This document shows positions 9,562-30,914 of a DNA stretch of 33,088 nt, piece by piece. The translations under genes were made by a program, and so were the position numbers. The DNA lies in the NCBI GenBank assembly GCA_029858345.1, contig JAOUFG010000019.1, positions 1-33,088 on the forward strand, given 5' to 3'. The notes below the pieces were generated by a model. The model was not told the origin of the DNA. It ran no database searches and worked only from the letters and a program-made list of their open reading frames with translations. This DNA is from Phycisphaerae bacterium. Lineage in GTDB: Bacteria > Planctomycetota > Phycisphaerae > Sedimentisphaerales > Anaerohalosphaeraceae. Each line of letters opens with the position of its first letter. The first letter of the stretch is position 1.

Positions 9562-10764
9562 TTATACCTTCATGGAGAAAATCGGCAGATACATGGCCAA
9601 AATCACCACTAAAACGATGGCGCCTACCGTAATAATCAGTATCGGCTCCAGCATTCCCAGCATCAGCGAAACCAGCGTGTCCACCTTCTTTTCATAATAT
9701 TCACTGGTCTTTTCCATCACCGAGGACAGTGAGCCGCTGTTTTCGCCGATTTGGGCCATTTTTATCGCCACACCCGGAAACAACCCAACCTCTTCCATGC
9801 CTTGGGAAATGTTTTTGCCTTCAACCATCTTCTCGCGTGTCTCGAGAACTCCCCGCCGCAGAAGCTCGTTATTGGTCATCTCCGCAAGAATTGAAAACGC
9901 GTCCAGCAGCGAAACGCCGGCGCCGATCAGCGTTCCCAGTGTCTTGCAGAACATCGCGACAAACGCCATCAAAACGATTTTTCCAAAGATCGGCGTCGAC
10001 AGGGTCAACTGGCAGTATTTCTCATGGCCCCGCTTTGTTTTGCTGTACAGCACGGCACCGAAAATAAACACCCCCAGCCCCATCAGGATATAGAGGATAT
10101 TGTGCACAATGCCGTCATACACCGCCATAAAACCCCGTGTAAACGCCGGCAGCTCGCCGTTGAATTCCTCAAACATCTGTGAAAACCGCGGGATAATCAG
10201 CGTCATCAGCACGATCACGATCACAATAATAAAGCTGACCACGAACATCGGATAGGCCATGGCGCCGCGAACCTTGCGCACCAGTTTCTCCCTGTTTTCG
10301 TAATGTTCCGCCAGACGCTCCAGGGCCTTTACCAGTGATCCGCCCGTTTCTCCTGCCATGACAATCGCACAGCACAATTTACCGAAAACCTTCGGGTATT
10401 GCCGAATACTATCGGTAAACGACATCCCCTTTTCGATCTTGTCCGCCATGCTTTTCAAAACATGCTCGAAATAGGGATTCGAAATTTCGTCCGCAATCGT
10501 TTGGATTGCACTGGTAATCGACAGACCGCCCGAAAGCATCGTACTGAGCTGCCAGCAAAAGGTTGCCAGGTCGATGGATTTGACTTTCTTATATCGAACC
10601 TCTGCCTTTTTTTGCTGTTGCTCGCCAACAATCTCATTGATAACCGCGGGCGTCAATTCCTGGCCGCGCAAATAGGCCAGCAGTTCATCCTGGCTGGATG
10701 CCTGCCGGGTGCCTTCTTTGCAGTTGCCCGAATAATCCCATGCGACGTATTCAAATGTTTTCAT
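9562..10764 (-). CDS. pilC: PilC/GspF-family inner-membrane platform protein
   Basis: A 400-residue integral membrane protein with two GspF domains. The first (about 65-190) contains FCWQLSTMLSGGLSITSAI and MAGETGGSLVKALERLAEHYE; the second (about 270-395) contains FCKTLGTLIGAGVSLLDAF and IGENSGSLSSVMEKTSEYYE. Membrane helices lie near 170-190, 220-240 and the C-terminus (ILIITVGAIVLVVILAMYLPIF). PilC is the platform through which the PilB motor drives pilin insertion. Of two close ATGs the second is taken because AAAGG is seven bases ahead of it. The 91-base repeat lies 31 bases upstream. Confidence 0.93.
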   Translation of the reverse strand: MKTFEYVAWDYSGNCKEGTRQASSQDELLAYLRGQELTPAVINEIVGEQQQKKAEVRYKKVKSIDLATFCWQLSTMLSGGLSITSAIQTIADEISNPYFEHVLKSMADKIEKGMSFTDSIRQYPKVFGKLCCAIVMAGETGGSLVKALERLAEHYENREKLVRKVRGAMAYPMFVVSFIIVIVIVLMTLIIPRFSQMFEEFNGELPAFTRGFMAVYDGIVHNILYILMGLGVFIFGAVLYSKTKRGHEKYCQLTLSTPIFGKIVLMAFVAMFCKTLGTLIGAGVSLLDAFSILAEMTNNELLRRGVLETREKMVEGKNISQGMEEVGLFPGVAIKMAQIGENSGSLSSVMEKTSEYYEKKVDTLVSLMLGMLEPILIITVGAIVLVVILAMYLPIFSMKV

Positions 10765-10795
10765 GGTCATGCCTTTACATAAATATACTGATCAC

Positions 10796-10886
10796 GATTG
10801 AAATTTCCCGTTTCTGCGCGGCTATGTAGGGCTACGACCGCAAGTTACGACCCCGCCCGCGGGAATTTACTACCCTGAAGGGTATA
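10796..10886 (-). repeat. 91-base dispersed repeat, copy A, upstream of pilC
   Basis: Read on the minus strand this runs from TATACCCTTCAGGGTAGTAA to ACGGGAAATTTCAATC and is about 86 percent identical, with no gaps, to 30319-30409 (about 78 of 91 positions by eye). It opens with a perfect hairpin, TACCCT-TC-AGGGTA. A longer AAATTCCCG ... CGGGAAATTT pairing can be drawn in this copy but is imperfect in the other. It ends 31 bases before the pilC start, in the same orientation as the gene. Possibly a leader RNA element, a REP-like repeat or a small non-autonomous element. Confidence 0.8.
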
Positions 10887-11140
10887 ATCACAGTACCGGT
10901 GAATATTTCGTCTTTTTTGAAGGGGGAGTTTTGGAGAAACAAAAATTTTTCCGCCGCAAATCAGATCTAAGGGCCGTATCATATCGGTCCGATAAATGCC
11001 CGGAAATCAAGTACTGTTTCAGCTTTTGATCGTATTTAAGCCTTGCCCGATTCGGCGAAGCAAATGAAGGATATTATTTTGTGGTTGACCGGCAACACCG
11101 TCCGATAACAAAAAAACAACCCCCCCCCCTCTTCACGGAG
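10887..11140. other. pilB-pilC gap with a poly-C/poly-G tract
   Basis: No gene is seen here. Eleven bases after the pilB stop codon is a run of ten C (11120-11129; poly-G on the transcribed sense strand), followed on that strand by TTG and seven T. The words TTATCGGACGG and TTATCGGACCG occur near both ends of the gap, and ATCGGTCCGAT forms a palindrome near 10992. The rest holds nothing I can name. With repeat copy A it fills the 376 bases between pilB and pilC, unusually long inside this otherwise compact cluster. Confidence 0.5.
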
Positions 11141-24021: not shown

Positions 24022-24768
24022 ATGGCACAACATTCAAGAATTGAGTGGACAGAATCAACTTGGAATCCGGTCACGGGCTGCACAAAGATTAGTGCCGGTT
24101 GCCAAAACTGCTACGCAGAGCGGATGGCAAGGCGTTTACATGCAATGGGGGTCGAGAATTATCGAAATGGCTTTGAGGTTACTTTGCATCCCCATGTCCT
24201 TAGCAAGCCCTTAAGCTGGAAACAGCCGCAGACAATCTTTGTGAATTCCATGAGCGATCTTTTCCATGAATCCGTTCCGGATGACTTCATCCTGCAGGTG
24301 TTTGATGTGATGAGAAGCGCCTCATGGCATCGTTTTCAGGTCTTGACAAAACGCTCCGAACGATTATTGCATTTAAATCGACTGATTGACTGGCCGGAAA
24401 ATGTCTGGATGGGCACAACTGTCGAAAACGCCGGGTGTATTTATCGAATCGAGCATCTCCGAAACACCGAGGCGGTTATTAAGTTTTTATCACTTGAGCC
24501 GCTTTTAGGCCCGTTACACGATATGAATTTAAAGAATATTGATTGGGTGATTGCCGGTGGAGAATCGGGGCCGGGCGCCAGACCCATTGAGCCGGAGTGG
24601 GCCCGAGATATTCGCGACCAGTGCGTCGAAACAAAAACGCCGTTTTTCTTCAAACAATGGGGAGGCACAAACAAAAAGAAAAACGGCCGTGAATTAGACA
24701 AGCAAACATGGAATCAAATGCCAAAGGTAAATAGAAGGAGTACAGTAGTTGGATCAGGATGCAGTTAA
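24022..24768 (+). CDS. Three-Cys-motif protein, DUF5131 (phage Gp37/Gp68 family)
   Basis: A 248-residue protein beginning IEWTESTWNPVTGCTKISAGCQNCYAERMA in outline: the Cys residues at about 20, 27 and 30 are the family's signature and resemble a radical-SAM-type cluster site. Other family patterns are IFVNSMSDLFHESVPDDFI, FQVLTKRSERL, VWMGTTVEN, FLSLEPLLGP, VIAGGESGPGARP and TPFFFKQWGG. Members occur in phages and in mobile islands; the chemistry is not established. It overlaps the next gene, which encodes the known partner type, by 20 bases. The DNA is more AT-rich than the neighbours. No strong ribosome site precedes the ATG. Confidence 0.88.
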   Translation: MAQHSRIEWTESTWNPVTGCTKISAGCQNCYAERMARRLHAMGVENYRNGFEVTLHPHVLSKPLSWKQPQTIFVNSMSDLFHESVPDDFILQVFDVMRSASWHRFQVLTKRSERLLHLNRLIDWPENVWMGTTVENAGCIYRIEHLRNTEAVIKFLSLEPLLGPLHDMNLKNIDWVIAGGESGPGARPIEPEWARDIRDQCVETKTPFFFKQWGGTNKKKNGRELDKQTWNQMPKVNRRSTVVGSGCS

Positions 24769-25861
24769 TTTCTTCAAAGAAAAAAAATCGTGGTCACCGT
24801 ATAAAGATTTAATTCTTAATTATTACCTTGGGCCATATCTCGCTAAGGTGGCACTTCTCAAGAAACCAATCCTTGTCGTGGATTGCTTTGCAGGACCGGG
24901 CAAGTTCGATGATGGCGAAATTGGAAGCCCACTTATAATTGCTAACCACCTTGAAAAGTGCTCTGTGAAAGGGATAGGTGTAAAAGGTTTTTTTGTCGAG
25001 AAAGAGCCGGAGCTATTTTCTAAGTTAGAAAGAAATGTTCAACACTATTCCTTTCCGATAATAACAAAAAATAGCTCTTTTCAAGACGTTGTTGACGAGT
25101 TATCGGAGTATGCAAAATCGCACACGGTTTTTGTGTATGCAGATCCAATAAAACCAAGTCATTTGGCGTTCAATGACCTTAGAAGTGTATACGATCACCT
25201 TTGGAAGTCAGGCCAAAGTATTGAGTGTTTAATTAATTTTCTGTCTTTTGGGTTCTTGAGAGCAGTTGAAGGCATTAAAGATTATATTGTAACGGACAGA
25301 ACGATCAATGTTGGTCACGACAACACGGTAAAGTGGGATGCTATAGCAGGAGGAGACTATTGGCACAAAAATTTATTGGAAAATTTGCCGTCAGGGGAAA
25401 AAGTTGATCTGTTGGCCAATGGATACTCGGTGCAACTTGGGCGCTGGTTTAAATATGTTCTTAAATATCCAATCAGAGAAAAGTATGAAGACAGCTTGCC
25501 TAAATACCATTTGATATTTGGCTCAAGGTACCCGGACGCAGTCGATATAATTAACCGGGCGATGGTCAAGGCCAGAAGAGAATTTGTTGGGTCGCGATTT
25601 GTCAAAGGTATGTTGTTTGATAACCGCCCGAAAGAAGAGGTGGTTGATGAAGATGAAATCAAAGATTATCTGATTTCGACGTTGCAAAGAAACAACCATA
25701 CGACATGGAAACTACTCCGGGTAACCACAACACTGGATCATCCATGCATGTATACGGATTCTGAATTTAACAGAAATATAAAAAAGCTCATCCAGAATAA
25801 AATAATAAAAAGCAATTGTCCGGGTACAAGAAACGAGGACGATGCAGAAGTATGGCTATAG
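24749..25861 (+). CDS. tcmP: Three-Cys-motif partner protein TcmP
   Basis: A 370-residue protein that begins at TTG (AAGGAG eight bases ahead) inside the end of the DUF5131 gene. The start DAVNFFKEKKSWSPYKDLILNYYLGPYLAKVA, then PILVVDCFAGPGKFDDGEIGSPLI, is the TcmP pattern; DCFAGPG looks like a SAM-binding loop. FVYADPIKPS takes the place of the family's DPFG-type motif. The C-terminal part holds a winged-helix-like stretch. TcmP genes are consistently found beside three-Cys-motif genes; the joint function is unknown. Base composition is clearly AT-rich and codon use differs from the core genes on both sides, which suggests acquisition from elsewhere. Confidence 0.85.
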   Translation: MDQDAVNFFKEKKSWSPYKDLILNYYLGPYLAKVALLKKPILVVDCFAGPGKFDDGEIGSPLIIANHLEKCSVKGIGVKGFFVEKEPELFSKLERNVQHYSFPIITKNSSFQDVVDELSEYAKSHTVFVYADPIKPSHLAFNDLRSVYDHLWKSGQSIECLINFLSFGFLRAVEGIKDYIVTDRTINVGHDNTVKWDAIAGGDYWHKNLLENLPSGEKVDLLANGYSVQLGRWFKYVLKYPIREKYEDSLPKYHLIFGSRYPDAVDIINRAMVKARREFVGSRFVKGMLFDNRPKEEVVDEDEIKDYLISTLQRNNHTTWKLLRVTTTLDHPCMYTDSEFNRNIKKLIQNKIIKSNCPGTRNEDDAEVWL

Positions 25862-30254: not shown

Positions 30255-30318
30255 TTACTGGTTCGTGGTTGGTCGTTCACAGGCAATGCATAGCGGGTGT
30301 TGGTGAGCCCGCTTTTTT

Positions 30319-30409
30319 TATACCCTTCAGGGTAGTAAATTGCCGCGAGCAAAGTCGTAACTTACCACCGTATCGCTACATAGCCGCGCAGCAACGGGAA
30401 ATTTCAATT
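30319..30409 (+). repeat. 91-base dispersed repeat, copy B, upstream of the thioesterase gene
   Basis: This matches copy A (10796-10886, reverse strand) over its whole length without gaps, differing at about 13 positions. The conserved blocks are the TACCCT-TC-AGGGTA hairpin with TAGTAAAT, GTCGTAACTT, CTACATAGCCGCGCAG and AACGGGAAATTTCAAT. It ends 22 bases before the start codon of the thioesterase gene, in the gene's own direction, the same arrangement as copy A and pilC. Confidence 0.8.
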
Positions 30410-30431
30410 GCGGTGAGTAATGGAGCAACCA

Positions 30432-30914
30432 ATGGCCGAGACAATCAAGACACCTGCTGACAGCGCTGTTGAGACACGCTACCTGGTCATGCCCGGAAAC
30501 GCCAATGCGTTCGGCACGGCGTTCGGCGGTGCGATTATAGGCTGGATCGATATGGTCGCGGCGATGGCCGCCCAGAAGCACTGCGGCAGACAGGTCGTCA
30601 CCGCCGGTATCGACTCGGTGGCCTTTGAGGCGCCGGTTTGTATCGGCGACCAGGTGGTCCTGCTGGCCGCCGTCAATTATGTCAGCCATACTTCGATGGA
30701 GGTGGGCGTCAAAGTCATCAAAGAAGACCCCGCCACCGGCCAGCGCGTCACCGCGACACGGGCCTTTGTGACATTGGTCGCCATCGATGAAAACCATCAC
30801 CCGATTCCTGTGCCCAAACTGACGCCGCAAACCGATGAAGAAAAACGCCGCGCCAGCAACGCCGCCCTCCGCGTCCAAGCACGCAAACAACTCCGCCAGC
30901 AAACCACCCGCTGA
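30432..30914 (+). CDS. Hotdog-fold acyl-CoA thioesterase
   Basis: A 160-residue protein of the YciA/BFIT-like hotdog family, which hydrolyses acyl-CoA thioesters. The core pattern is MPGNANAFGTAFGGAIIGWIDMVAAMAA (an N..G..GG...WID motif), then VAFEAPVCIGDQVVLLAAVNYVSHTSMEVGVKVI and ATRAFVTLVAIDE. The charged C-terminal tail is usual. Of two in-frame ATGs twelve bases apart, the second is preferred because GGAG lies six or seven bases before it. Natural substrate unknown. Confidence 0.86.
   Translation: MAETIKTPADSAVETRYLVMPGNANAFGTAFGGAIIGWIDMVAAMAAQKHCGRQVVTAGIDSVAFEAPVCIGDQVVLLAAVNYVSHTSMEVGVKVIKEDPATGQRVTATRAFVTLVAIDENHHPIPVPKLTPQTDEEKRRASNAALRVQARKQLRQQTTR

Follow-up and report, generated by a model that had tools for sequence, protein, structure and literature searches.

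The 91-base repeat present in two distant copies in the window, the 33,088-nucleotide stretch of planctomycete DNA analysed here, is very probably an IS630-type MITE, of which the 91 bases form part within a transposon of approximately 100 bases. The element inserts at TA and has an end in common with insertion sequences (IS) of the IS630 family, and it is on these TA-duplicating insertions, on the corresponding empty sites, and on the common right end that the assignment is based. Elements of this kind are well known, and the family in Sedimentisphaerales appears to be undescribed so far, no earlier description of such a family having been found in the literature searched. With its target sites, its empty sites, and a candidate for the autonomous partner, the family could serve both in repeat masking and in the tracing of recent insertions in uncultured planctomycetes.

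In an unbiased repeat search covering the whole window, positions 10786-10887 pair with 30318-30419 (102 nt, 84% complementary, gap-free), bearing out the original prediction of two distant copies. The TACCCT-TC-AGGGTA hairpin and the common blocks ascribed to them are both present, and the 91-base copies do lie 31 and 22 nt from the start codons of pilC and a thioesterase gene. The length of 91 bases described a real repeat but fell short of the family unit, which an alignment of 30 copies places at 103 nt (TATACCC...CAGTATA), with the form TATACCCTTCAGGGTAGTAAATTCCCGCG...ACATAGCCGCG(CAGAA or ACCCA)ACGGGAAWTTTCAATCGYGATCASTATA; both window copies are 103 nt long, with TATA...TATA ends (Table 1). 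The left end is the most conserved part of the family, with a mean of 93% per column, and an internal block (columns 58-70) is 81% conserved, versus 69% in the remaining interior. The conservation of this block goes beyond the needs of a bare MITE, and counts against so simple a description. Regarding the two neighboring genes, the best matches of the pilC/gspF-like gene are the TIGR02120 GspF and PilC models, and that of the thioesterase gene is NF007970, all of them under the curated cut-offs. Elsewhere in the window, positions 24022-25861 hold two adjacent genes whose products presumably resemble a DUF5131 (phage Gp37/Gp68-like) protein and a three-Cys-motif partner (TcmP-like) protein, respectively.

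Table 1. Element copies, their ends, and neighboring genes in the window, with loci of copies that carry additional repeats.
Feature	Position or loci	Strand	Remarks
Element copy 1, family F1, with TA target duplication	10784..10886	-	Borders set by the empty site in G003 (L135)
Copy 1, element proper, 99 nt	10786-10884	-	Flanking TA at 10885-10886 and 10784-10785
Copy 1 left end, TATACCCTTCAGGGTAGTAAATTCCCGCG, hairpin and divergent terminal inverted repeat	10858..10886	-	
Copy 1 right end, AAACGGGAAATTTCAATCGTGATCAGTATA, terminal inverted repeat common to IS630-family IS	10784..10813	-	
Element copy 2, family F1	30319..30421	+	Right-hand TA duplication decayed (GTAAT)
pilC/gspF-like gene, MKTF..., start 10764	9562..10764	-	19 nt downstream of the 103-nt copy 1
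YciA-like acyl-CoA thioesterase gene, MAETIK..., start 30432	30432..30914	+	Downstream of copy 2
Copies with palindromic inserts or tandem unit	L393-L403, L022, L389; CSMAG_2489 copies L182, L224, L226		

The most direct evidence for mobility comes from sites that are filled in one genome and empty in another. PilC orthologues from the same genus were employed to read the spacer upstream of pilC, and in G003, whose PilC is 87% identical, this spacer aligns throughout and is devoid of the element; the filled site reads GTGATTA[TACCC...CAGTA]TATTTATG in the window, and the empty one CTAATCATTTATT. Four further loci, tested with joined flanks, are each empty in same-genus genomes, the filled sites displaying the arrangement TA-99 nt-TA (one of these copies being one base shorter) and the empty sites a single TA or a mutated form thereof. 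At the hisC-hisB junction, where the last codons of hisC have been replaced by the element, removal of the insertion restores the target in frame (GAG ATA CTT GAT TAA), to be compared with GAA ATT GTT GGT TAA in G003, while at locus L026 the predicted empty target, CCTCATTATAAAAAAAGC, is matched letter for letter in G002. In addition, one copy on a CSMAG_2489 contig (L212) is inserted within another, as GTTG-TA[TACCC...CACTA]TA-AATTATT, at a point where the receiving copy reads TTGTAAATTATTG. A TA target with a 2-bp duplication is thus documented at five sites that are empty in same-genus genomes and in one nested insertion; duplication of a 2-bp TA is the signature of transposases of the IS630/Tc1/mariner group.

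In the named genomes, loci L164, L186, L246, and L252 consist of a partial left element followed by a complete one, the right half of the first being missing, an arrangement that looks like a nested insertion followed by deletion between both right ends. The existence of an autonomous element defined by the left end only was also considered, and was rejected because unpaired left ends could be traced to nesting, to truncation, or to a palindromic insert within the copy. Such palindromic inserts (TCCCGATNNATCGGGA and GATCCCGGATCAAGTCCGGGAT), as well as a 15-nt tandem unit (ACCTGTGGCACAAGT), are found inside a number of copies, and are further small repeats that insert into the element or expand within it.

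A candidate source of the transposase was recognized among the DDE_3 loci of relatives. In G007, a member of the same genus, AAACGGGAAAACTCAATCGTGAACAGTATA follows directly upon a transposase stop codon (L295) and displays 3 differences from the right end of the element (E=3e-8), within an IS that has decayed to fragments. In G121, of the same order, an intact transposase ORF of 347 amino acids (L315) is flanked on either side by the element's right end, in inverted orientation to each other, and belongs to the IS630 family (NF033545, 227.5 bits for a cut-off of 100; PF13358, 115 bits). None of 5000 shuffles matched either end of this IS as well as the right end of the element does. The element's left end is more divergent: its similarity to the right end is above chance, 9 of 5000 shuffles aligning as well, and its likeness to the two IS ends is weak, being equalled in 30 and 166 of 5000 shuffles, respectively.

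Both carriers of the close IS, G007 and G121, also hold the element, which is absent from five genomes whose IS relatives are all more distant or partial, and from G015, which has 32 DDE_3 genes. Conversely, the genome of the window contains no relative of this transposase at E<=1e-15, and G035 and G052, among other nearly complete genomes that carry the element, display no DDE_3 match, so that the majority of copies may date from an activity now lost. A partner IS that is missing from the host genome is usual for decayed systems, and a MITE does not strictly require its presence.

Such copies are numerous. The genome from which the window originates (3.0 Mb in 198 contigs) yields at least 125 profile matches at E<=1e-3, a count that takes in related subfamilies and fragments, 150 of 1261 first-look candidates having been scored by profile; with a best E-value of 2.5e-31, the repeat lies far beyond chance. 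A search for further copies in the genome and its relatives, proposed along with the original prediction, thus found many, at non-orthologous places. The element is patchy among relatives (25 of 59 genomes), and of 397 genomes sampled from the class 23 contain it, all of them belonging to Sedimentisphaerales, the order of the window itself; in several families of this order, most copies measure 102-103 nt. The exact left-end pattern was retrieved from 111 stretches in named genomes, with planctomycete metagenome-assembled genomes in every row listed and many rows named Sedimentisphaerales, while an exact-pattern search of viral contigs found none. Copies are on average 81% identical within the window's genome and 72% between genomes, and the nearest neighbor of 73 of 85 copies resides in the same genome, where shuffles lead one to expect 16; both observations point to amplification of the repeat family within lineages.

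These sequence data suggest a mechanism in which a transposase of the IS630 family (a DDE enzyme of the Tc1/mariner superfamily) would mobilize the element in trans by recognizing its ends, presumably including the divergent left one, with movement probably following a cut-and-paste route. The copies found next to start codons are insertions into short intergenic spacers, and there is no evidence in support of a regulatory role for them.

The genome of the window also contains a second family, F2, which is likewise approximately 100 nt long. F2 agrees with F1 in its left end and ACATAGCCGCG core, but has another right end; at least one F2/F1 chimera exists (L411). It is unlikely, although worth bearing in mind, that the ACATAGCCGCG core together with the left end constitutes a conserved module that is joined to differing right ends (the IS630 repeat in F1, an unrelated end, ...GCGCAGTTTTTTAGTAGAACTGGTAT, in F2, and the combination in L411). 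If this were true, the family would represent a modular group of mini-transposons capable of switching transposase, and the common half would have a job of its own, such as a single-strand fold or a site for a host factor. F2 loci (L365-L383, L391, L416, L419) display a ACATAGCCGCGCAG core and a right end terminating in ACTGGTAT, and often start immediately at the stop codon of the gene before them.

The IS630-type MITE could in addition furnish neighboring genes with a portable promoter, terminator, or site of mRNA processing. Such roles have been reported for other MITEs, namely Correia elements and ERIC (PMC10969869, PMC2229807), and the copies described here do sit in intergenic spacers; moreover, in one genome, G013 (L031, L060-L069, L455-L459), copies in a tandem context are oriented 10 same to 1 opposite. 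This bias (p=0.012) is, however, uncorrected for the several genomes considered, pooled orientation is random, proximity to starts is not favored over proximity to stops (38 of 83), and neither a sigma-70-like promoter nor a terminator was found in the region of copy 1, all of which make a role of this type rather improbable.

The original prediction envisaged either a leader RNA or a mobile promoter or regulator; the mobile element stands, on account of its dispersed copies and empty sites, and the leader RNA does not. That the repeat could be a cis-acting leader or riboswitch ahead of genes under its control was suggested by the fact that both window copies point toward a start codon at a distance of 22-31 nt, and by the conservation of an end hairpin and of a 9-bp stem that links one end to the other. 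The polarity proved to be a two-copy coincidence, since among 140 copies those located between co-directional genes are oriented 43 same to 40 opposite (p=0.83), with 17 to 23 in the window's own genome and 33 to 36 in a partly overlapping GTDB set of named genomes; gene calls for these counts were made with a simple caller based on codon usage, whose output was compared by eye with the ORFs of the window. Neither a fixed polarity nor a conserved position before orthologous genes was found, the pilC site being empty in relatives.

Compensating changes, whose search had also been proposed, do not exceed those in shuffles. With 91 copies and an explicit three-stem structure, 79.5% of cells are paired, versus 79.4% after shuffling, and RNAalifold retains only 3 pairs, which correspond to the end hairpin. 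A mild excess of pairs changed on both sides was seen for the whole structure (14 of 500 shuffles) and, when the inner hairpin was considered alone, for its cells (11 of 500), but the other measures give no support. In a few very divergent copies (L389, L378, L390) the stem is kept while bases are changed on both sides; matching changes at both ends are nevertheless also expected for terminal repeats that must suit one and the same transposase. Rfam scans of the window and of divergent copies yielded no match above gathering, only chance microRNA and snoRNA matches. The leader reading is therefore highly improbable, and the tempting image of a "mobile riboswitch" is superseded by a documented transposon insertion, a reminder that polarity should not be read from two copies.

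Divergent copies located before rplT and rplE evoked a ribosomal-protein leader, a candidate that was abandoned for rplT as the element is absent there in 29 of 29 other genomes examined. The second of these copies, in the window's own genome, lies between rplX and rplE (L378, C92:30474-30555:+), and its stems are changed yet paired. A separate hairpin, GCTTCYCGGC...TCRGCTGCCGCAGC, is conserved in the spacer between rpmI and rplT (L425-L454, e.g., L426:1426-1498:+), with GAAAGGAAAGCTGRT lying between it and the start of rplT; it is present in at least 26 genomes of Sedimentisphaerales and has no Rfam match at gathering in the three loci scanned. Its outer pairs that vary freely, four in number, all do so with compensatory changes, which makes the hairpin a positive control, indicating that the method is able to detect a real RNA, and marks it as a candidate L20 leader RNA of planctomycetes.

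Among known systems, the REP/REPIN elements, moved through single-strand hairpins by IS200/IS605-like Y1 (RAYT) transposases, are also approximately 100 nt long, with a hairpin at one end and a high copy number, and Y1 transposases are common in Sedimentisphaerales (52 of 59 genomes), but that the present element should be one of them is scarcely credible, since it duplicates TA, which Y1 enzymes are not known to do, it has its right end in common with an IS630 element, Y1 genes occur in element-rich and element-free genomes alike, and an examination of 24 Y1 loci found none with a copy at its flanks. Other short repeats are comparable with the preferred IS630-type MITE. The 127-nt ERIC/IRU/RU-1 element of enterobacteria (PMC2229807) is, like the present one, intergenic, with TA ends and target duplication, although sequence and host differ, and ERIC is known for its effects on mRNA stability. 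The Correia elements (NEMIS/CREE) of Neisseria are likewise short and dispersed, with TA termini, target duplication, and terminal inverted repeats (PMC2229807), but differ in their 24-bp terminal repeats, documented promoters, and processing by RNase III (PMC10969869, PMC2229807). The closest parallel is RUP, the repeat unit of pneumococcus, an intergenic element of 107 bp with some hundred copies, a TA target, and ends like those of an IS630-family IS (PMC2229807), mobilized by IS630-Spn1. In a comparison limited to published properties, the two are alike in their length of approximately 100 nt, copy number, use of TA, and IS-like ends, whereas the planctomycete element belongs to another phylum, has only one end that closely matches that of the IS, lacks the IS in the genome of the window, and spans an order rather than one species. 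These likenesses suggest that the element would work in a manner analogous to pneumococcal RUP.
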